Positions 4,626-14,106 of a stretch of DNA of 64,000 bases are shown here, one piece after another. Origin of the DNA: Sphingomonas endolithica (GTDB lineage Bacteria; Pseudomonadota; Alphaproteobacteria; Sphingomonadales; Sphingomonadaceae); assembly GCF_025231525.1 (NCBI RefSeq), contig NZ_CP103057.1, forward strand, positions 248,001 to 312,000, given 5' to 3'. The translations under genes and the position numbers were made by a program. The notes under the pieces were generated by a model that ran no database searches, was not told the origin of the DNA, and saw only the letters and a program-made list of their open reading frames with translations. Each line of letters starts with the position of its first letter. The first letter of the stretch is position 1.

Positions 4626-6245
4626 TCAGCCGACGGCGCGTGCCACGGTGGCCGACGCCCGCTCGCTCGGCACGACCCGCAGCAGGCGCTTCTCGGCCAG
4701 CAGGCGGCGGACGTTGATCGCACTCAGCGGTTGCCCATACAGATATCCCTGACCCTTGGCACAGCCCAGCGCGCGCAGGCGTTCCTCGATCCGCGCATCC
4801 TCGATCCCCTCCGCCGTGATCGGCAGGTTCAGGCTTTCGCCGAGCCGCGTGATGGCGTTGACGATCGCTGCGCTCTCCGCATTCTCGGCGATCGACATGA
4901 TGAAGCTCTTGTCGATCTTGATCCGATCGAACGGCAGCGCGCGCAGATGGGCGAGCGACGAATAGCCGGTGCCGAAATCGTCCAGCGCGATCGCGATGCC
5001 CTGGTTCTTGAGGCTGCCGACGATCGATTGCGCCAGCGCCAAATTGTCGAATAGCGAGCTTTCGGTGATCTCGATCTCCAGCCGGCTGGCCGGGAAGCCG
5101 GTTTCCGTCAGCACCTTGATAATCTTTTGCGACAGCCACGCATCCTTCAACTGCCATGGCGAGATGTTGACCGAGACCGACAGCCGCGCATCCCAATCCT
5201 TGGCGGCCAGGAATGCCTGCCGCATGATCGACAGTGACATCTCGGCGATCATGCCGGTCTGTTCGGCGATCGGGATGAAGGTGTCCGGTCCGATCAGGCC
5301 GCGCGTCGGATGTTCCCAGCGCGCCAGGACCTCGAAACCGGTCAGCCGACCGGTGGCGAGATCGACCTGCTGCTCGAAATATGGCACGATCTCGCAGCGT
5401 GGAATCGCCAAGCGCAGCCCGCTTTCCAGGTCGCTGCGCGCTTGCAGATCGCGTTCCATCGATCGGTCGAACCAGGCATAGCGGTTGCGACCGGCATTCT
5501 TGGCCGCATACATCGCGATATCCGCCGCGCGCATGAGCGCATCGATGCTGCTGCAGTCGAAATCGGACCGAGCAATGCCGATCGTTGCCGAGATATGCAG
5601 CTGCAACCCATTTACGTGCAGCGGCCGGGCAAGACGGCTGACCAGGCGCTCGGCGACCCGCTCGACCGTATCGGGATGCTCGGCATCGAACAGGAAAGCA
5701 CAGGCGAATTCGTCGCCGCCCAGACGCGCGGTCAGTGCGATGGCCGGCATGGCATCTGCTATATCGGCCGCGACAAGCTTCAGCAGCGCATCGCCCGTGG
5801 CATGGCCGTGCATGTCGTTGACGGTCTTGAAATGGTCGAGATCGAGCATGATCAGCGCCATCGCCTTGCGGCGTTTCTCCGCGCGCACGAACATCGCTGC
5901 GCCTTCTTCGGCCAGGCTGCGTCGGTTGAGGAAGCCGGTCAGCGGATCCTTCGAGGCCAGGGAATGCGCCCGTTCCTCGGCGGCGGTACGCACCGTCACT
6001 TGCTGCGACAGATCGCGGTGACGACGCCAGCCGAACAGGATGAGTGCCACATTGAGCAGCAGTGCCACCACCAACGTGTGATTGACCCTCTCGCCATTCC
6101 CTGAATAGGCTTGCAACGAGAGGGAGAGGACGACGCTGGCGATACCGACGAAGAGCAGGATCGCCGCAAAGGTGATCGCGTCGTTGAGCAGCGTTCCACG
6201 CCCCGTCCCCGGAGATAGAGTGAGGTCGTCGCCATCCAGCGTCAT
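4626..6245 (-). CDS. Membrane GGDEF-EAL cyclic-di-GMP enzyme
   Basis: 539 residues. Two transmembrane helices (about 21-46 and 56-73) with a short loop, then a GGDEF domain with RLGGDEF at 175-180 and KDPLTGFLNRRSLAEEG at its start, then an EAL domain beginning GFEVLARWEHPTRG (E305) and containing EITESSLF and LDDFGTGYSSLAHLR. Both active-site signatures are intact, so synthase and phosphodiesterase activity are each possible; no RxxD inhibitory site is seen five residues before GGDEF. There is no recognisable sensory domain beyond the short membrane anchor. It stands alone, transcribed away from ffh. Confidence 0.93.
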   Translation of the reverse strand: MTLDGDDLTLSPGTGRGTLLNDAITFAAILLFVGIASVVLSLSLQAYSGNGERVNHTLVVALLLNVALILFGWRRHRDLSQQVTVRTAAEERAHSLASKDPLTGFLNRRSLAEEGAAMFVRAEKRRKAMALIMLDLDHFKTVNDMHGHATGDALLKLVAADIADAMPAIALTARLGGDEFACAFLFDAEHPDTVERVAERLVSRLARPLHVNGLQLHISATIGIARSDFDCSSIDALMRAADIAMYAAKNAGRNRYAWFDRSMERDLQARSDLESGLRLAIPRCEIVPYFEQQVDLATGRLTGFEVLARWEHPTRGLIGPDTFIPIAEQTGMIAEMSLSIMRQAFLAAKDWDARLSVSVNISPWQLKDAWLSQKIIKVLTETGFPASRLEIEITESSLFDNLALAQSIVGSLKNQGIAIALDDFGTGYSSLAHLRALPFDRIKIDKSFIMSIAENAESAAIVNAITRLGESLNLPITAEGIEDARIEERLRALGCAKGQGYLYGQPLSAINVRRLLAEKRLLRVVPSERASATVARAVG

Positions 6246-6583
6246 GCGTTGCGGGCCTTGGGTTTGATCGAAGCGGACCCAGTGCCATAACGCAGGTGTA
6301 AATCGAGTTAAGGCGTGTCGGGCCTTGTACGGGGTAGGCGTTCAGGCCATGCGCTTGTCCAACACCGAGCTTTCATGCCTGAACAAGCCCGAGGTTGCCG
6401 AGGTGGCTGACACCCTCTTCGACGGTTGCATTCCACCCCTGCTTCCGCTAGCAACCCACCCGATCGCTCGTCTCGGACGAAGCGCAAAGGCAGCCCAAGG
6501 GCTACGCCGGCCGACGAGGTTTCGTCCGCCGGCGTGTTTTGCGTTTAGCCCGGGGCGCATCGGTCGCAAGGAAAGGTTTTGGA
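6246..6583. other. 338-base gene-free divergent region upstream of ffh
   Basis: Between the divergent GGDEF-EAL and ffh genes. No convincing ORF. The right part holds three stem-loops in a row: one near 6465-6485 (CGCTCGTC / GACGAAGCG), a small AGCCC-AA-GGGCT at 6492-6503, and the strong terminator-like hairpin at 6504-6547. The conserved SRP RNA tetraloop region was looked for and not found. Confidence 0.6.
6504..6547 (+). terminator. Terminator-like hairpin in the ffh leader
   Basis: 14-bp stem with one mismatch: 6504-6517 against 6522-6535, a 4-base loop (ggtt), followed by GTTTTGCGTTT. It lies only 36 bases before the ffh start, and no plus-strand gene lies upstream for it to terminate. 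It may end a small RNA or attenuate ffh. Confidence 0.6.
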
Positions 6584-8098
6584 TTGTTCGATAGCCTGAG
6601 TGATCGCCTTGGCGGTGTGTTCGATCGGTTGCGCGGCCGCGGTGCGCTGACCGAGGCGGACGTGCGCGCGGCGATGCGCGAAGTGCGCGTTGCCTTGCTC
6701 GAAGCCGACGTCGCGCTGCCCGTGGCACGCGATTTCGTCGACAAGGTGACCGAGCAGGCGGTCGGCCAGAACGTGCTGCGGTCCGTCACGCCGGGGCAGC
6801 AGGTCGTCAAGATCGTCAACGACGCGCTGGTCGAGATGCTCGGTGGCGAGAATGTCGACGCGGCCGAACTCGAACTGGGCGTCACGCCGCCGGCGGTGAT
6901 CATGATGGTCGGCCTGCAGGGCTCGGGCAAGACCACGACCACCGCCAAGATCGCGCTGCGCCTGAGCGGTGGCCGCGGCGGGCGCGAGCGCAAGAAGGTG
7001 CTGATGGCGTCGCTCGACGTCAATCGCCCCAATGCGCAGGAACAGCTTGCCGTGTTGGGCACGCAGGCCGACGTGCAGACGCTGCCGATCGTCGCCGGGC
7101 AGCAGCCGGTGGATATTGCGCGCCGTGCGCTGCAGGCCGCGCGCCTGCAGGGCTATGACGTGCTGATGCTTGATACGGCGGGCCGCCTGCACGTCGATCA
7201 GGCGCTCATGGACGAGATGCGCGCCGTCGCCGATGTCGCGCAGCCCGCGGAAATCCTGCTCGTCGTCGATGCGCTGACCGGGCAGGATGCGGTCAACGTC
7301 GCGCAGAATTTCTCGGAACAGGTGCCACTGACCGGCGTCGTGCTGACGCGCATGGACGGCGATGCGCGTGGTGGTGCCGCGCTGTCGATGCGTGCCGTCA
7401 CCGGCAAGCCGATCAAGTTCGCCGGTGTCGGCGAGAAGCTCGAGGCACTGGAGGCATTCCATCCGGGGCGTGTTGCCGGCCGGATCCTGGGCATGGGCGA
7501 CGTGGTCGGGCTGGTCGAGCGTGCGGCGGAAGCGGTGCAGCAGGGCGAAGCCGAGGCGATGGCCGCCAAGATGGCCAAGGGTCAGTTCGACATGGACGAC
7601 CTGCGCGCCCAACTGGGGCAGATGCGCCGCATGGGCGGCCTGGGCGCGCTGGCGGGCATGATCCCAGGCATGAAGAAAGCCCAACAGGCGATGGCCGCGG
7701 GCAATGTCGACGAGAAGATCCTGCTGCGCATGGACGCGATGATTACCTCGATGACCAAGAAGGAGCGCACCAAGCCCGAGCTGATCAACGCCAAGCGCAA
7801 GATCCGCATCGCCAAGGGCAGCGGCACGACCGTGCAGGACGTCAACAAATTGCTCAAGATGCACATGGAAATGGCATCGGCGATGAAGAAGATCCGCAAG
7901 ATGGGCGGATTGAAGGGCCTGGGCGCCATGTTTGGCAAGGGCGGCATGGGCGGCGGCGGGGATGGCGGCATGGGTGGTGCCGGCGGTCTAGGGGGCCTTG
8001 GCGGCTTGCTCGGCGGCGCCGGCGGCGGCGGGCTTCCCGGTCTCGGCGGGGGCAACGCCAAGCTACCCCCCGGCTTCGACAAGCTTCTAAAGAAATAA
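6584..8098 (+). CDS. ffh: Signal recognition particle protein Ffh
   Basis: 504-residue SRP GTPase that binds signal sequences and 4.5S RNA. The TTG start at 6584 gives the family-typical beginning MFDSLSDRLGGVFDRLRGRG and has AGGAAAGG 7 bases before it; an upstream in-frame TTG at 6539 is less likely. N domain, then G domain motifs GLQGSGKTTTTAKIA, DVNRPNAQEQL, DTAGRLHVDQAL and TRMDGDARGGAAL, then a methionine-rich M domain (IPGMKKAQQAM, MDAMITSMTKKER, SGTTVQDVNKLLKMHMEM). The C-terminus is a Gly/Met-rich tail of about 60 residues ending LPPGFDKLLKK. Confidence 0.97.
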   Translation: MFDSLSDRLGGVFDRLRGRGALTEADVRAAMREVRVALLEADVALPVARDFVDKVTEQAVGQNVLRSVTPGQQVVKIVNDALVEMLGGENVDAAELELGVTPPAVIMMVGLQGSGKTTTTAKIALRLSGGRGGRERKKVLMASLDVNRPNAQEQLAVLGTQADVQTLPIVAGQQPVDIARRALQAARLQGYDVLMLDTAGRLHVDQALMDEMRAVADVAQPAEILLVVDALTGQDAVNVAQNFSEQVPLTGVVLTRMDGDARGGAALSMRAVTGKPIKFAGVGEKLEALEAFHPGRVAGRILGMGDVVGLVERAAEAVQQGEAEAMAAKMAKGQFDMDDLRAQLGQMRRMGGLGALAGMIPGMKKAQQAMAAGNVDEKILLRMDAMITSMTKKERTKPELINAKRKIRIAKGSGTTVQDVNKLLKMHMEMASAMKKIRKMGGLKGLGAMFGKGGMGGGGDGGMGGAGGLGGLGGLLGGAGGGGLPGLGGGNAKLPPGFDKLLKK

Positions 8099-8112
8099 CT
8101 CCGCACCCGAAG

Positions 8113-8195
8113 CGTCATCCCAGCGAAGGCTGGATCTCAAGCGGCAAGGGCGCTCCATTAACAACCAAAATACTCCAGCCTGCGCTGGGGTGACG
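8113..8195. repeat. Palindromic repeat, CGTCATCCCAGC type
   Basis: Outer arms CGTCATCCCAGCGAAGGCTGG (8113-8133) and CCAGCCTGCGCTGGGGTGACG (8175-8195) around a 41-base centre. It sits between ffh and rpsP and may end ffh transcription. Confidence 0.8.
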
Positions 8196-8217
8196 AAATC
8201 AACGAAGGAAGAATATC

Positions 8218-8727
8218 ATGGCAGTCAGCATTCGCCTTACCCGTGGCGGTTCCAAGAAGCGTCCGTACTACAAGATCGTCGTGGCCGATGCCCGCGCGCC
8301 GCGCGACGGCAAGTTCATCGAGAAGATCGGCACGTATAACCCGCTGCTCGCCAAGGACGACGAGAAGCGCATCGTGCTCGATGGCGATCGTGCCAAGCAT
8401 TGGCTGAGTGTCGGCGCCCAGCCGACCGATCGTGTCGCCCGCTTCCTGGATGCCGCCGGCGTCAAGGAACGTGCTGCGCGCAGCAACCCGAACAAGGGCA
8501 AGCCGGGCGAGAAGGCCGTCGAGCGCGCCGACGAGCGTGCGACCAAGGCCGAGGCTGCTGCCGCCGCCGCGGCGGAAGCCGCTGCGCAGCCGGCACCAGA
8601 GCCTGAAGCTCAGGCCGAGACCGAAGCCGTGATGGCAGCGGAAGTCGAAGCAGCGACCGAGACGCCGACCGCCGAAGGCGATGCCGTCGCCGAAGCGACC
8701 GACGCCGAACCGACGACCCAAGCCTAA
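8218..8727 (+). CDS. rpsP: 30S ribosomal protein S16 with long acidic/Ala tail
   Basis: The first 80 or so residues are a standard S16 ([50 protein letters not shown]), a small-subunit assembly protein. The remaining half is a low-complexity Ala/Glu-rich extension ([20 protein letters not shown] and similar) making 169 residues against about 80-90 in E. coli. Such tails are seen in sphingomonads. Start ATG follows GAAGGAAG. It heads the translation cluster that includes rimM. Confidence 0.95.
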
Positions 8728-8738
8728 ACGGCACCAAC

Positions 8739-8792
8739 ATGGGCATCGCGCGTTCCAGCACCTTCAACAGTGCAGGAGTGCGTGATGCCCAT
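8739..8792 (+). promoter_or_regulatory. Long hairpin covering the start of the small ORF between rpsP and rimM
   Basis: Arms ATGGGCATC (8739-8747) and GATGCCCAT (8784-8792) pair perfectly, and the inner 14 bases on each side pair with five mismatches (CCAGCAC against GTGCAGG and neighbours), leaving a loop of about 8 bases. The AGGAG ribosome site (8774-8778) and ATG (8785) of the 41-codon ORF lie inside the structure. It could control translation of that ORF, or be a weak transcription stop after rpsP. Confidence 0.5.
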
Positions 8793-8910
8793 CGTCGATC
8801 CAGAACCAACCGATGACGACGACGCCGACAACCAGGGCGTCTCCGCCACCGATCCCGCCGAAGGATCAGACGATGCTCCCGCCGAAAACGACGGCTCAGC
8901 CACCGGTTGA
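8785..8910 (+). CDS. 41-residue very acidic small ORF overlapping rimM
   Basis: Begins MPIVDPEPTDDDDADNQ and ends NDGSATG; 13 Asp/Glu and no Lys or Arg, so a strongly acidic peptide. AGGAG lies 6 bases before the ATG. The ORF overlaps the first 38 bases of rimM in another frame, so its translation would carry ribosomes across the rimM start. I recognise no family. It may be a leader for rimM rather than a protein with its own job. Existence is inferred from start signals and placement only. Confidence 0.45.
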   Translation: MPIVDPEPTDDDDADNQGVSATDPAEGSDDAPAENDGSATG

Positions 8911-9385
8911 CCGGGCAGATGCGCCGGTTACGCTCGCGGTCGTGATCGGCGCGCACGGTGTGGCCGGGGAAGTCCGGCTGAAAGTGTTCAGCGACGATCT
9001 TGGCAGCTACAAGATCTTCAATGGCGGCGCGCTGACGCTGAAATCCACGCGCCACGGCAGCAACGGGACGATCGCCCGCATTGCCGAAGTGACTGACCGC
9101 AATGCCGCCGAAGCGATGCGCGGCATGGAACTCACCGTTCCCCGTTCCGCCTTGCCGCCGCTGGAAGACGGGGAATACTATCACACCGACCTGCTCGGCT
9201 TGCCCGTCATATCTACGGACGGCGAGGCACTCGGCGCCGTCGTCGCCATAGATGATTTCGGCGCGGGCGATGTGATCGAGGTCGAACGACCTACAGGCAA
9301 GCGCTTCATGGTGCCGATGAACGGTGAGGCCGTGCCCGACTGGAACGGCGATCGTATGCTGGTCGATCCGGCGTGGATTGTTTGA
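8873..9385 (+). CDS. rimM: 16S rRNA processing protein RimM
   Basis: 170-residue RimM, an assembly factor that acts on 16S rRNA maturation around S19. Start chosen at ATG 8873, preceded by GAAGGA at good spacing; an ATG at 8813 would add 20 residues without family similarity. The N-terminal barrel begins VTLAVVIGAHGVAGEVRLKV, and the PRC-barrel end has YYHTDLLGLPV, DFGAGDVIEV and FMVPMNGEAVPDW. Normally followed directly by trmD; here an unrelated block of about 2 kb intervenes. Confidence 0.93.
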   Translation: MLPPKTTAQPPVDRADAPVTLAVVIGAHGVAGEVRLKVFSDDLGSYKIFNGGALTLKSTRHGSNGTIARIAEVTDRNAAEAMRGMELTVPRSALPPLEDGEYYHTDLLGLPVISTDGEALGAVVAIDDFGAGDVIEVERPTGKRFMVPMNGEAVPDWNGDRMLVDPAWIV

Positions 9386-9440
9386 CGCCCCGCAAGACCT
9401 ACGTCATTCTTGATCGTCGTGATGCGCGGAGTTCTTTAGG

Positions 9441-9764
9441 ATGAGTGCCTGGCTGTTTGTTGCCGCTGCCATCGCGCTGGAAGTTACAGGCACGTTTTTA
9501 CTTAGATTATCCGACGGCTTTGCCAAATGGCATTGGGGGCTACTCTCGATCGCGTGCTACTCGGCATGCTTCTGGGCGCTGTCTCCGGCCATGAAGGTGC
9601 TGCCGATCGGCGTCATCTACGCCGTCTGGGCTGGCGTGGGCATCGTCGCTGCGGCGTTGCTGGGGCTCGTGATATTCGGCGAGCGCCTCGGGATGGTTCA
9701 AGTGCTGTGCATCGCATTGGTGCTGGTCGGCGCCGTGGGGTTGCGACTGACGACCACCAGTTAA
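9441..9764 (+). CDS. SMR-family small multidrug transporter
   Basis: 107 residues with four hydrophobic helices, typical of EmrE/QacE/SugE-type drug/proton antiporters that work as dimers in the inner membrane. The essential membrane glutamate is present (AIALEVTGT, E14), along with helix 3 IGVIYAVWAGVGIVAAALLG and the GERLGMVQ loop. A TTTAGG sequence precedes the ATG at poor spacing. Its stop codon overlaps the stop of the convergent oxidoreductase gene. Substrate cannot be told. Confidence 0.9.
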   Translation: MSAWLFVAAAIALEVTGTFLLRLSDGFAKWHWGLLSIACYSACFWALSPAMKVLPIGVIYAVWAGVGIVAAALLGLVIFGERLGMVQVLCIALVLVGAVGLRLTTTS

Positions 9765-10666
9765 CGCCTGATCGGGCGTTGCTCCGCCAGCAAGTTACGG
9801 ATCGTCGTCGCGGCCACGCCAGCTTCGCCCATTGCGTGACTGATCTGGTCGAGCCCTTTCACCACATCGCCCGCCGCGAACAGGCCGGGGATACTCGTGC
9901 GCTGGTGTTCGTCCACTTCTAGGCACCCATCCTCCGACGCGTTGGCACCAGCGGCAACCGCCAGCTTGGACCGGATCACCGAACCCAGTGCCGGGTAGAT
10001 GCTGTCGAATTCCAGCATACCACCCGGGGTCGTCACCGAGATCTGATCACCCGCAATCTGGATCGGCGTGCACGGCCCATCGACATGCACGATCCCTGCA
10101 TCGTCCAGCTTTGCGCGACAGGTGTCGTCCAACTCATGCGCCGCGCCTGGCGCGATCAGCGTCACGTCGCTCGTATATCCGCGCAGGAAGATCGCCTCGC
10201 GCATGCCATGATCGCCGGTGCCGATCACCCCGACACGCTTGTCGGTTACTTCATAGCCGTCGCAGATCGGGCAATACCGTAGCAATCCACGCTCGAGCGC
10301 CGCGTCATGCTCTGCGTCATCCATCTTCGGCCGGTTGTTGACCACGCCGGTTGCCAATAAAACGGTACGTGCCTGGACGATGCGATCGCCGATATGAACC
10401 TCGAACCCGCCCTCGACCGGCAGGATCGCGGTGACCTCCGCCTGTTCGCGCGTCGCGCCATACTTCTCGGCCTGTTCCAGCATCAGCCGCAGCAATTCGG
10501 TGCCTTTCACGCCTGCGGGATAGCCAGCGTGATTGTGCGTGCACGGGATCAACGCCGCGCGACTGCTACCGCAATCGAACAGTCGGATGGAAAGGTGAAA
10601 CCGTGCGAGATAGATAGCGGCGGTGAGCCCGGCCGGGCCGGCCCCGATAATGATGCAATCGTCCAT
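9761..10666 (-). CDS. Thioredoxin-reductase-like FAD/NAD(P) oxidoreductase
   Basis: 301 residues. An FAD-binding GxGxxG at the N-terminus (CIIIGAGPAGLTAAIYLARF), an NAD(P) site GVIGTGDHGMREAIFL, and a closing FAD motif GLFAAGDVVKGLDQISHAMG. A redox pair CPICDGYE sits where TrxB has CATCDG. Start taken at ATG 10666; 15 residues further upstream do not fit the fold. It may reduce a thioredoxin-like partner, but no thioredoxin gene is adjacent. It lies antiparallel inside the normally collinear rimM-trmD region. Confidence 0.88.
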   Translation of the reverse strand: MDDCIIIGAGPAGLTAAIYLARFHLSIRLFDCGSSRAALIPCTHNHAGYPAGVKGTELLRLMLEQAEKYGATREQAEVTAILPVEGGFEVHIGDRIVQARTVLLATGVVNNRPKMDDAEHDAALERGLLRYCPICDGYEVTDKRVGVIGTGDHGMREAIFLRGYTSDVTLIAPGAAHELDDTCRAKLDDAGIVHVDGPCTPIQIAGDQISVTTPGGMLEFDSIYPALGSVIRSKLAVAAGANASEDGCLEVDEHQRTSIPGLFAAGDVVKGLDQISHAMGEAGVAATTIRNLLAEQRPIRR

Positions 10667-10699
10667 GATCGCGCTACGCGCGGCGCGGGGCGTTGTTCC

Positions 10700-10738
10700 T
10701 TGACACGGCAATCAGGCGTATATACATTCCGTGTATAC
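10700..10738 (+). promoter_or_regulatory. vapBC promoter with palindromic operator
   Basis: A consensus -35 TTGACA (10700-10705), 17-base spacer, and -10 TACATT (10723-10728). An imperfect palindrome, GTATATAC (10718-10725) and GTATAC (10733-10738), overlaps the -10 box. This placement is typical for autorepression by a VapB-VapC complex. Confidence 0.65.
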
Positions 10739-10748
10739 GGAGGATGGT

Positions 10749-11024
10749 ATGGACGACGACGCTTATCGCGGAACCACATTCAAGTCGGGCAACTCCGTTG
10801 CCTTGCGGCTGCCCAAGGGCATGGGCATTCCGGAAGGCACCGAGGTCCGCATGGTCAAAGACGCGCCTATGTCGTTCAGGGTCGAAGCGGTCGATGCGCC
10901 GCGGCGCACGATCGACATTAGCGGATTTGCGGGAAAGGCCCCGGGCGCAAAGCTGATCCCGCATGGCGACTTTGATGAGCGGCCCAGCACGACTGCAAAG
11001 CGGCTGGCAGAACGCGACGCGTGA
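10749..11024 (+). CDS. vapB: AbrB/MazE-type antitoxin VapB
   Basis: 91 residues. The N-terminal swapped-hairpin DNA-binding domain is visible as FKSGNSVALRLPKGMGIPEG and VRMVKD. The C-terminal 40 residues are charged and flexible, as expected for toxin wrapping (LIPHGDFDERPSTTAKRL). ATG 10749 was chosen because GGAGG lies 5 bases before it; an upstream ATG at 10731 lies inside the operator palindrome. The stop overlaps the vapC start by 4 bases (GTGA). Confidence 0.85.
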   Translation: MDDDAYRGTTFKSGNSVALRLPKGMGIPEGTEVRMVKDAPMSFRVEAVDAPRRTIDISGFAGKAPGAKLIPHGDFDERPSTTAKRLAERDA

Positions 11025-11398
11025 CCAAATTCCTCATCGACGCGGATATGGCTATTTACGCAATGGCGGGATTACGCTCACGGCTAAATGACAGACTGGC
11101 CGCCTGCTATCCCGGCGACGTGGCGATCTCTGCTATCAGCTTTGCAGAGATCGCCGTTGGCACCTTCGTGGGCAAACCCCCGACGCCTGAAGTACTGGAT
11201 GCCTTTACCCGGGTGATCCCGATCATGGCCTTCGACGAGGGCGCCGCCCGCGCCTATGCAGGGCTGCCGTTCAAGCGTGCGCGCTTCGATCGGCTGTTGG
11301 CGGCGCACGCCCTCAGCCTTGGCGCGATCATCGTCACCAACAATGCAGACGATTTTGCCGACGTGCCTGGCCTGAATGTCGAGAACTGGACTTTATGA
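11021..11398 (+). CDS. vapC: PIN-domain toxin VapC
   Basis: 125-residue PIN-domain ribonuclease. The acidic metal-binding residues are all present: D7 (FLIDADMA), E43 (SFAEIAVG), D90 ([11 protein letters not shown]), and the late TNNADDF (D110). VapC toxins of this type usually cut initiator tRNA or other tRNA/rRNA; the target here is unknown. GTG start overlaps vapB. Its own stop overlaps the trmD start codon (ATGA at 11395-11398), an unusual link between a toxin and an essential tRNA methyltransferase gene. Confidence 0.9.
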
Positions 11399-12123
11399 CC
11401 TTCGCCGCTACCGTCCTGACGCTCTATCCCGACATGTTTCCCGGGCCGCTCGGTACCTCGCTCGCCGGGCGGGCGTTGGGGGAGGGGAAGTGGTCGCTCG
11501 ACGCGGTCAACATTCGCGATTTTGCGACCGACAAGCACAGCACCGTCGACGGCACGCCGGCCGGGGGCGGGGCAGGGATGGTATTGCGCGCCGATGTGCT
11601 GGCGGCCGCGATCGACAGCGTGTCCTCCGGGGCTCCGATCCTCGCCATGACCCCCCGAGGTGCCCCGCTGACGCAGGCGCGGGTGCGCGCGTTGGCGCAC
11701 GGTCCGGGCGTCACCATCCTGTGCGGTCGTTTTGAAGGCTTTGACGAACGCATCTTCGAAGGCCGGCAGGTCGAGGAAGTATCGATCGGCGACTATATCC
11801 TATCCGGCGGCGAGATGGGTGCCTTGGTGCTGCTCGACGCTTGCATTCGGCTGCTTCCCGGCGTAATGGGCGCGGCTTCTAGCGGCGTGGACGAGAGCTT
11901 CGAAGGAGGCATGCTCGAATACCCGCAGTACACCCGACCAGTAGAATGGGAAGGGCGCACGATCCCGCAAGTGTTGCGATCGGGGGATCATGCGAGGATC
12001 TCAGGCTGGCGAAAGTCGATGGCCGAGACCGACACACGGCTAAGGCGGCCGGATCTTTGGGAGCGCCATATCGGTGCTCGGGTCCAGTCGCCCTCTGGCG
12101 CGCGACAGAAGAAGGACGAATGA
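11395..12123 (+). CDS. trmD: tRNA (guanine-N1-)-methyltransferase TrmD
   Basis: 242-residue SPOUT methyltransferase forming m1G37 in tRNA, needed to prevent +1 frameshifting. Family motifs: [80 protein letters not shown]. Complete. It begins within the vapC stop codon, so translation is probably coupled to vapC. rplS follows after 1 base. No separate promoter was recognised by eye between vapC and trmD. Confidence 0.97.
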
Positions 12124-12124
12124 G

Positions 12125-12514
12125 ATGAATCTCATCCAGACGATCGAAGCCGAGAACATCGCCAAGTTTCTCGAGACGAAGAAAATCCCGGAATTCCGCC
12201 CCGGCGACACGCTGAAGGTCGGCGTGAAGGTGGTCGAAGGCGAGCGTACCCGCGTCCAGAACTACGAAGGCGTGTGCATCGCGCGTTCGAACAAGGGCAT
12301 GGGCAGCAACTTCACCGTGCGCAAGATCAGCTTCGGTGAAGGCGTCGAGCGCGTGTTCCCGCTCTACTCGCCGAACATCGACAGCATCGAAGTCGTCCGC
12401 AAGGGCGCCGTGCGTCGCGCCAAGCTGTATTACCTGCGTGGACGCACCGGCAAGTCGGCGCGTATCGCCGAGCGCCGCGACACGCGCCCGGCCAAGACAA
12501 CCGCCGCCGAGTAA
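12125..12514 (+). CDS. rplS: 50S ribosomal protein L19
   Basis: 129-residue L19, located at the 30S-50S interface. [51 protein letters not shown] and the [20 protein letters not shown] block are typical, ending in [17 protein letters not shown] plus a short tail. ATG 12125 is almost fused to the trmD stop, confirming the trmD-rplS operon. A strong terminator follows at 12540. Confidence 0.97.
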
Positions 12515-12539
12515 TCGAACCGGTATTGAGCTGGCGACA

Positions 12540-12571
12540 GGGCGCGGAGACGATGGTCTCCGCGCCCTTTT
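12540..12571 (+). terminator. Intrinsic terminator after rplS
   Basis: Perfect 11-bp stem GGGCGCGGAGA / TCTCCGCGCCC with 6-base loop, followed by TTTTGCGTTTT. Confidence 0.9.
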
Positions 12572-12602
12572 GCGTTTTGGGCGGTGATGATATCCCAACG
12601 GG

Positions 12603-12706
12603 CACCCCGGACTTGTTCCCGGGTTACGGTGCCGCAGGGTCGGCGTTCTGCTTTCGGTCGTCGGAATAAGCGGCGTGGTGGACCCCGGAACGAGTCCGGG
12701 GTGACG
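12603..12706. repeat. Palindromic repeat, CACCCCGGACTTGTTCC type
   Basis: Outer arms CACCCCGGACTTGTTCC (from 12603) and GGAACGAGTCCGGGGTGACG (to about 12706), about 60 bases between. Related copy at 48696-48803. Confidence 0.85.
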
Positions 12707-12772
12707 GTTGGCGCGGGTTCATCTGCTGCACCCTAATAGCTTCCGCCGCGTTCAGCCGGCAGGAAGGCAAGG

Positions 12773-13510
12773 ATGGCATTCGTTCAATCATCGCGCGCCG
12801 ATCGCGTACGCGGCGCGCTCATCGCGATCACGCTGCAGGCGATCATCGGCTATGCCCTGATCGCCGGCCTGGCGGTTGGTTTCCCACAAGCTGTCAACGA
12901 AACGCTCGAGACCTTCACAGTCCTTCCTGCACCGCCACCGCCGCCCCCTGAAAAGATCAAGCCGCACCGCGTGGTGAGCAAGAAGGCCGAAGGCGCCGCA
13001 TCGCCACCGAACCTGCGCTCCAAGGCGACCGAGCTCGTCGCTCCACCGCCAATCGTCCCGCCACCGGTGCCGCCGACGATCGTCGCTGCCGAAAAACCGG
13101 GCATCGGCAACCAGTCGACGTCGGGCAACGCCGAGGTGCGCGGCCCCGGTACGGGAAGCGGCGGCATCGGCAATGGGACGGGTAGCGGGCGCTATGGCGA
13201 TGGCGACGGCGATGGCGGTCGCGAAATCCCCCCGCGGCAGACCAAGGGCATGAAGCGCGGCGACTATCCCAGCGACCTGTCCGACGCCGGCATCGGTGGC
13301 ACCGTGGGGGTGCGGTACGTGGTGACAGCGACCGGACGCGCGACCCAATGCCGGATCATGCGCTCCAGCGGCAGCCGTGCGCTCGACGTCCGCACCTGCG
13401 AACTGATCGAGCTGCGCTTCCGCTTTAAACCGTCGCTTGATGAGGATGGCCGGCCGGTGGCATCGGTGCTGGTGCACGATTACAGCTGGATCAACGAGCT
13501 CAACGATTGA
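12773..13510 (+). CDS. TonB-family energy transducer
   Basis: 245 residues: short basic N-terminus, one transmembrane helix (about 15-36, ALIAITLQAIIGYALIAGLA), a periplasmic Pro-rich stretch (PAPPPPPPEKIKPHRV, APPPIVPPPVPPTIV), a Gly-rich linker (GTGSGGIGNGTGSGRYGDGD), and a C-terminal TonB domain (about 165-242) with VGVRYVVTATGRATQCRIMR and SSGSRALDVRTCELIELRF. It would pass proton-motive energy to TonB-dependent outer membrane receptors. No exbB or exbD is adjacent, so it is one of several TonB-like proteins that sphingomonads carry. Confidence 0.88.
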   Translation: MAFVQSSRADRVRGALIAITLQAIIGYALIAGLAVGFPQAVNETLETFTVLPAPPPPPPEKIKPHRVVSKKAEGAASPPNLRSKATELVAPPPIVPPPVPPTIVAAEKPGIGNQSTSGNAEVRGPGTGSGGIGNGTGSGRYGDGDGDGGREIPPRQTKGMKRGDYPSDLSDAGIGGTVGVRYVVTATGRATQCRIMRSSGSRALDVRTCELIELRFRFKPSLDEDGRPVASVLVHDYSWINELND

Positions 13511-13542
13511 GCCTGGCAGGCTTGCGGTATAGGCTTGCGTGC

Positions 13543-14106
13543 ATGCGGAACCGTTGCCCCTGGGCCGAAAGCTCGGACATGATGCGCGCCTATCACGACA
13601 CCGAATGGGGCGTGCCCGAACGCGATTCGCGAGCCTTGTGGGAGAAGCTGCAGCTCGACGGCTTCCAGGCCGGCTTGTCGTGGAGCATCATCCTCAAGAA
13701 GCGCGATGCCTTTCGCGAGGTGTTCGCCGGGTTCGATCCGGAAAAGGTTGTCGAGTACGACGAGGCGGGTATTGACCGGCTGGTGGTCGACGAGCGTATC
13801 ATCCGATCGCGCGCGAAGATCGTCGCCACGATTGGCAATGCCCGCGCCTATCTCGCAATGCAGGCGGCTGGCGAGGATTTCGCGGAGTTCGTGTGGGGGA
13901 TGGCGGGTGGCGCGCCGGTCGTCGGTGATGGCGTGCACGTGCCGGTCAAGTCGCCGCTGTCCGAGGACATGTCCAAGGCACTCAAGAACCGCGGGTTCAA
14001 GTTCGTCGGGCCGGTGATCGTCTATGCCTGGCTGGAGGCGTGTGGTGTGGTCGACGATCATCTCGCGACGTGCTGGCGGCACCGCAGCAATGAGATGCCA
14101 GCCTGA
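13543..14106 (+). CDS. tag: DNA-3-methyladenine glycosylase I
   Basis: 187-residue Tag, which removes 3-methyladenine from alkylated DNA. Start MRNRCPWAESSDMMRAYHDTEWG at 13543 matches the family; the zinc ligands are visible as the early Cys (RCPW), YHDTEWG, and the C-terminal DDHLATCWRH. LWEKLQLDGFQAGLSWSIIL and the FKFVGPVIVYAWLEACG end are intact. It follows tonB by 32 bases on the same strand. Confidence 0.95.
   Translation: MRNRCPWAESSDMMRAYHDTEWGVPERDSRALWEKLQLDGFQAGLSWSIILKKRDAFREVFAGFDPEKVVEYDEAGIDRLVVDERIIRSRAKIVATIGNARAYLAMQAAGEDFAEFVWGMAGGAPVVGDGVHVPVKSPLSEDMSKALKNRGFKFVGPVIVYAWLEACGVVDDHLATCWRHRSNEMPA

Follow-up and report, generated by a model that had tools for sequence, protein, structure and literature searches.

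In Escherichia coli, the genes rpsP, rimM, trmD and rplS follow one another in that order; trmD is essential, and its product makes m1G37 in the anticodon loop of tRNA. The closest described toxin-antitoxin systems are the type II VapBC pairs of the tRNA(fMet) VapC kind, with entries from the F plasmid, Shigella, Salmonella and Haemophilus, and VapBC1 of Caulobacter crescentus. Polymorphic toxin or hsdS-type loci offer a further comparison: their alleles are swapped within a constant frame, an exchangeable toxin or specificity part being accompanied by a matching partner tail.

Here we consider a vapBC pair placed directly before trmD in Sphingomonas endolithica, within a window of 64,000 nucleotides (contig NZ_CP103057.1, positions 248,001 to 312,000). 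The pair shares its antitoxin-toxin order, 4-nt overlap, PIN acids and promoter palindrome with systems of the tRNA(fMet) VapC kind, and it resembles Caulobacter VapBC1 in that VapC matches its counterpart in the PDB (1.2e-10) and VapB1 is the top fold match of VapB. Unlike either, the window VapC falls under the curated cut-offs, the pair both precedes and overlaps trmD, and its alleles are exchanged at one site. As in polymorphic toxin or hsdS-type loci, the trmD slot has a constant frame holding an exchangeable toxin and a matching antitoxin tail, but here the frame joins the regulatory end of an antitoxin gene to the beginning of a housekeeping gene. Among the matches listed in a search of the open-access literature (subscription journals lay outside its scope), no paper on vapBC linked to trmD was found, and passages of PMC2701414 and PMC6163740 make no mention of this linkage.

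The window holds the four genes of the E. coli operon in the same order and direction. The first gene of the original operon, rpsP (30S protein S16; 8218-8727, plus strand; PF00886, 3.7e-29), is followed by rimM (8813-9385, plus strand, as the longest ORF, with the conserved portion from about 8915; TIGR02273, 7.9e-34, passing its cut-off). Further downstream, trmD (11395-12123, plus strand, ATG start; NF000648, 1.3e-85, passing its cut-off) encodes the only TrmD match in the 4.09-Mb genome, and rplS (50S protein L19; 12125-12514, plus strand, ATG start; TIGR01024, 9.5e-46, passing its cut-off) begins 1 nt past the trmD stop and has a terminator-like stem of 13 pairs at its 3' side (12539-12568, plus strand; signal scan). 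Unlike the E. coli operon, the window is opened between rimM and trmD by a small multidrug resistance (SMR) gene (9441-9764, plus strand; PF00893, 5.8e-25), an antiparallel gene for a thioredoxin-reductase-like oxidoreductase (9761-10666, minus strand; PF07992, 2.4e-32; TIGR01292, 167.9 bits, under its cut-off) and vapBC, so that the four genes do not form a contiguous co-directional run; the gene map thus agrees with the first-pass annotation, which had described the operon as cut by these same genes. The vapB gene (10749-11024, plus strand, ATG start) and vapC (11021-11398, plus strand, GTG start) overlap by 4 nt, the vapB stop lying in the vapC GTG (GTGA, 11021-11024). A second 4-nt overlap places the vapC TGA within the trmD ATG (ATGA, 11395-11398), and the annotation was equally right that vapC ends inside the trmD start codon. 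No Rfam family matched at 6000-14000 of the window, and PADLOC returned nothing for the window VapB or VapC.

According to family matches, the window VapC is a PIN-domain protein (PF01850, 3e-6, over its cut-off). It also matches two tRNA(fMet) VapC models, NF047863 (2.3e-17) and NF010285 (3.4e-11), at 63.5 of 140 and 43.2 of 143 bits, that is, under the curated cut-offs for membership of the tRNA(fMet)-specific group; all 18 of the 18 VapC alignment members match both models at E <= 0.001, a comparison of E values and not of cut-off scores. The best PDB sequence matches are tRNA(fMet) VapC chains (2.4e-11), followed by Caulobacter VapC, and VapC is predicted to cut tRNA. The window VapB reaches no Pfam family, PF04014 included, and its own match is a weak one to the MazE model NF047400 (3.1e-4, under the cut-off); its assignment as a MazE/AbrB-type antitoxin comes from the alignment, 22 of 29 members of which match PF04014 (MazE) at E <= 0.01, and from a structure model (mean pLDDT 74; residues 11-50 firm, loose beyond). 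Chains from VapBC or MazE entries fill the first 27 places among the 42 fold matches of that model, with Caulobacter VapB1 at the top (probability 0.98, E 0.047) and none at E <= 0.001. The pair therefore shows the traits of a type II VapBC system, namely a PIN toxin with conserved D/E/D/D positions, a small DNA-binding antitoxin encoded 5' of the toxin gene and overlapping it by 4 nt (alignment and model), and, on sequence alone, a palindromic operator over the promoter.

We then considered the distribution of this arrangement. TrmD matches were found in 292 of 295 genomes of the genus and VapC matches at E <= 1e-3 in 168, about 144 of which are strong by hand count (the 168 minus 24 with E > 1e-12), with the position checked on sequence in 87 genus loci. 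From the top of the TrmD listing, 40 loci were fetched, a few being skipped; among these and the window, 41 genus loci in total, vapC stands before trmD in 27. A further 60 genus loci, from the VapC listing, all have vapC upstream of trmD on the same strand (60/60), and so do 40 of 40 loci from other genera, drawn from high in the VapC listing with some short contigs skipped; the choice of these 60 and 40 loci was not blind, many trmD coordinates being already in view. Across the other genera of Sphingomonadaceae, VapC was matched at E <= 1e-6 in 116 of 397 family genomes and 43 of 96 genera. The named loci found through VapC alone, some of which are from the same genomes as the unnamed sets, place vapC upstream of trmD in 72 of 72 cases (the contig of L147 ends at the trmD start); the junction is the same in the non-pathogenic laboratory strain Sphingobium sp. 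SYK-6 (L151), and named genomes belong to Sphingomonas, Sphingobium, Novosphingobium, Sphingopyxis, Blastomonas, Croceibacterium, Qipengyuania and others. The distance from the vapC stop to trmD is at most 1.3 kb in all 198 loci measured. The comparison of gene order in related genomes that the annotation had proposed thus gave vapC upstream of trmD in every vapC-bearing family locus read, and the arrangement is family-wide, recurring in numerous bacteria of soil and water, and no quirk of one genome.

Outside the family, a class survey of 385 drawn genomes gave 19 with VapC at E <= 1e-9, and trmD is absent from the 1.5 kb surrounding their 20 VapC loci, some of which are cut by contig ends. 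In a plasmid search, 1886 of 1888 records were under 60% identity and two at 60-80%; the best record among those listed, of 880 kb and from Sphingomonas, has the vapBC-trmD operon with ffh and rpoD nearby.

The 4-nt overlap of vapC and trmD was found in 22/27 and 51/60 genus loci, 21/40 other-genus loci and 26/71 named loci. Gaps of 150-1000 bp separate the two genes in 14/40 other-genus, 33/71 named and 6/87 genus loci, and loci L069, L072 and L117 carry the antisense oxidoreductase gene between them, so coupling to vapC does not extend to every locus. Of 46 loci with such a gap (a count that includes named duplicates), 41, among them L062, L108, L110 and L113, have between the two genes an ORF of 60 codons or more whose end falls at or close to the trmD start; the one tested had no Pfam match.

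In the order outside the family, rimM adjoins trmD with a gap under 150 bp in 20 of 20 loci (fetched out of 24 order genomes), and this adjacency is likely the original state. The two genes overlap by 4 nt in 6/20 of these outgroup loci and in 4/11 family loci that have no vapC, and vapC may therefore have taken over an older coupling point. Forty family genomes chosen for having no VapC match gave a rimM-trmD gap under 150 bp in 10, over 150 bp in 26, unjudged in 3 and a distant vapC in 1. The 26 wide gaps would be expected if the junction merely tolerates insertions and vapBC is a passenger there, with no regulatory role, trmD-rplS being expressed through read-through or an unrecognised promoter. 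The same reading draws on the cargo genes identified in L108 (PF00144, 8.7e-67) and L084 (PF12850, 7.8e-13), on the signal scan of the window, which found nothing resembling a terminator where the SMR and oxidoreductase genes converge (9761-9764), and on the trmD loci devoid of vapBC, which have no better promoter. Against it, vapC is always on the trmD strand, with no minus-strand vapC in 272 mapped loci, while the oxidoreductase gene is antisense, and the promoter-operator and the overlap recur across diverged alleles; we regard a passenger role as unlikely.

Several other peculiarities were observed around this junction. Its cargo is varied across the family, with genes for an oxidoreductase, an SMR protein, a metallophosphatase and a beta-lactamase-fold hydrolase as well as small ORFs. 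In 8 of 60 genus loci (L313, L325, L327-L332) the vapB operator is preceded, about 1050 to 695 bases before trmD, by a second vapC that retains the presumed catalytic acids; the three sequences read leave too little space for this copy to have a vapB of its own. The TrmD proteins of L108, L117, L120 and L126, the hits to which are split, carry past residue 74-80 an insert of 30-40 residues in which P, S, E and G are frequent and which is perhaps a translated repeat element. The trmD gene of L295 and L311 is read in two frames, perhaps by assembly error.

The sole plus-strand sigma70-like site between rimM and trmD in the window (TTGACA-17-TACATT, 10700-10728) stands 5' of vapB, and its -10 box is overlapped by an inverted repeat, CGTATATAC-N5-GTGTATACG (10717-10739), the likely VapBC operator. 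For motif and pair counts the named loci were excluded, leaving 116 loci with a well matched vapB. Sigma70-like sites of at least 9/12 were found before vapB in 45 of the 116 (4.4% of shuffles), an enrichment that stands out: such sites occur inside vapC before trmD in 1/104 loci (2.1% of shuffles), before trmD in 0/15 family loci without vapC in which the oxidoreductase gene adjoins it and 0/11 in which rimM does, before trmD in 0/20 outgroup loci and, as a control, before rpsP in 3/181 (3.1% of shuffles). The scan uses simple two-base block shuffles as background, is insensitive and misses other promoters; since the rpsP promoter also goes unseen by it, the absence of a site before trmD is weak evidence, and the vapC-less loci suggest that trmD can be expressed by other means. 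A perfect 7-bp inverted repeat precedes vapB in 81/116 loci (shuffled mean 1.5), and a GTATATAC-type half-site in 116/116. The palindrome pattern occurs in 180 of 199 vapC-bearing locus records (some genomes being present twice), near vapB in 168 of those, and in 0/53 family records without vapC and 0/20 outgroups.

We had considered this palindrome unique to the trmD-linked locus and dropped the idea, as GTATATAC half-sites also stand near the expected position before other vapBC pairs in 18 of 38 loci by our own count; the operator is therefore typical for this kind of VapB and no mark of trmD control. The other genus pairs with an upstream half-site include L342-L345, L347, L348, L351 and L352, and sharing of the half-sites makes cross-regulation with the trmD locus possible. 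A search for the exact palindrome gave 8 of 61 genomes with one copy each, which by eye lies at the trmD-linked vapB.

Given a promoter and palindrome before vapB and no enriched signal before trmD, the VapBC promoter is the most likely source of trmD-rplS transcripts, with translation most likely coupled to that of vapC, and the operon would be autoregulated by VapBC. The annotation had read trmD-rplS as dependent on this promoter: the part that stands is that promoter and palindrome stand out before vapB, while read-through from rpsP may contribute as well. A strong trmD promoter inside vapC, which it had named as evidence to the contrary, did not appear as an enriched signal in a scan of limited sensitivity. 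A Shine-Dalgarno core is missing before trmD in 90 of 94 overlap loci, and also in 43/53 family loci without vapC and 14/20 outgroups; before vapB it is found in 91/122. The overlap together with the missing core fits translational coupling of trmD to vapC.

The presence of vapC was mapped on a species tree of Ffh, TrmD and L19 that kept 121 of 141 loci (the others have no usable ffh, trmD or rplS), 54 of them with vapC. It takes 22 changes, 14 of them forced by starred branches, against a shuffled mean of 39.8, a count that does not separate gain from loss. The annotation had also proposed that the toxin locus could not easily be lost; with these 22 changes and a toxin that is often replaced, this was right in part only.

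By contrast with the stable gene order, the toxin alleles are replaced in place at the trmD slot. Among 105 pairs of loci with TrmD genes at least 93% identical, vapC is under 70% identical in 51, at 70-75% in 1 and higher in 53, a two-peaked distribution; the pairs are not independent and form 10 clusters, 5 with replacement, and one 16-species complex supplies 85 of them, 44 replaced. Within this complex two alleles (a2 and a3) need 5 changes on the upstream, downstream and joint flank trees alike (shuffled 5.5), and a tree constrained to unite one allele in a clade was rejected at p 7e-5, in a test whose groups were named after the allele data had been seen and in which few branches are well supported. 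In DNA profiles of sister species, rimM or the oxidoreductase gene and trmD are mostly 80-100% identical and vapBC about 35-68%, one oxidoreductase window standing at 57-58%. In L070/L064/L067 the replaced segment runs from near the vapB promoter to near the trmD start, and in L065/L066, L076/L099 and L091/L099 the upstream edge is within vapB, the promoter and the N half of VapB being retained; the profile of the window against L061 did not show replacement. Among 82 replaced pairs, a set dominated by the same 16-species complex, 62 have their upstream edge 180-212 nt into vapB; downstream, the edge falls 51-60 nt before trmD in 62 and at most 20 nt from the trmD start in 11. Homologous recombination would be the means of this exchange.

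The two parts of VapB were compared over 105 loci. Correlation with VapC is r 0.61 for the VapB tail and 0.23 for the N half; correlation with TrmD is 0.44 and 0.39 respectively, and as the tail follows TrmD no less than the N half does, this argues against a plain rule in which the N half stays and the tail moves. In 92 of 101 genus loci kept, the number of changes needed by VapC clusters varies with the threshold: at 60% identity 7 clusters take 7 changes (minimum 6), at 65% 25 clusters take 37 (minimum 24), and at 70% 34 clusters take 41 (minimum 33).

On a wider scale, the VapC tree and the species tree have 2 of 51 splits in common, and 8 of 9 strong VapC splits conflict with strong species splits. 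The VapC-TrmD correlation is -0.006 in 81 loci (81/121 kept), with Ffh-TrmD at 0.70. A VapC tree wholly independent of species, as values of -0.03 and -0.006 had suggested, was softened by other samples: the correlation is 0.31 within VapCs like that of the window, 0.43 in 21 genus loci and 0.28 in a denser set (105 of 116 loci), with 0.50 for its genus part and 0.75 for TrmD-RimM. The values of 0.43, 0.28 and 0.50 indicate that recent inheritance has in good part been vertical. In a comparison with 17 other VapCs, the trmD-linked VapCs and orphan copies take 3 changes on a poorly resolved tree, so that donors appear to be mostly other trmD loci. Fourfold sites are saturated, and a cross-genus test based on them, the list of which was headed by short TrmD fragments (L180 and L183, both rows unused), shows no recent transfer and is uninformative.

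This vertical signal, the saturated sites, at which recent cross-genus transfer is not visible, and the second upstream vapC would each suit a history with no exchange at all, in which VapC differences stem from ancient tandem vapBC copies with differing losses or from rapid divergence in place. Such a history would hardly leave sharp-edged replaced segments between similar flanks, nor scatter a2 and a3 over both the upstream and the downstream trees of a single complex of close species; in addition, the upstream second vapCs cluster as a separate group, and dN is well under dS within alleles. We consider it distinctly improbable.

A further question is whether the toxin itself is still in use. 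The positions presumed to be the catalytic quartet of VapC are conserved across 121 proteins (D in 121, E in 120, D in 121 and D in 113), and dN is far under dS for vapC in 8 of 8 pairs; with acids retained and selection purifying, vapC is predicted to be a toxin kept active. Residues 1-35 of VapB are on average 68% alike, compared with 41% for the remainder, as might be seen if VapB and its operator had been domesticated for control of trmD-rplS and VapC were a spent toxin. The acids present in 113-121 of the 121 VapCs and the purifying selection on vapC speak against a spent toxin, and this alternative seems very unlikely.

Taken together, we think it probable that vapBC heads an autoregulated and coupled vapB-vapC-trmD-rplS operon, the inner toxin part of which is exchanged among species; the rpsP control of the promoter scan and the correlation of the VapB tail with TrmD weigh slightly against this. 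Gene order, overlaps, motif conservation, distribution and the replacement of alleles at the slot are observed directly. A type II vapBC would have entered the rimM-trmD junction early in Sphingomonadaceae, or repeatedly at one slot, and become the promoter-proximal section of the operon. VapB, with VapC, would bind the GTATATAC palindrome over the -10 box, and the levels of TrmD and L19 would then be set by the toxin-antitoxin autoregulatory loop, possibly with extra read-through from rpsP, the trmD start being reached through termination-reinitiation at the vapC stop. The cassette ends would tend to persist, upstream the promoter, operator and DNA-binding half of VapB and downstream the vapC C-terminus with the trmD start, and the inner part, the VapB tail and VapC core, would be swapped for same-locus alleles of related species.

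A more speculative reading, which we hold to be doubtful, makes the operator, the DNA-binding half of VapB and the vapC-trmD junction a fixed regulatory frame through which TrmD and L19 would be linked to a predicted tRNA-cutting toxin; the toxin and its matching antitoxin tail would be exchanged under diversifying selection, phages or mobile elements being examples of possible sources. If so, removal of VapB would free the toxin and at the same time increase TrmD, and TrmD could act on the tRNAs attacked by VapC by modifying, protecting or replacing them.

If trmD-rplS is indeed read from the VapBC promoter, a toxin-antitoxin system would belong to the machinery by which many species of Sphingomonadaceae express core translation genes, and the trmD slot would also be a natural allele-swapping locus for toxins. 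Species with vapBC, without it and with differing alleles are ready-made comparisons, which make testable both the purpose of chromosomal toxin-antitoxin systems and whether linkage to an essential gene stabilises them.
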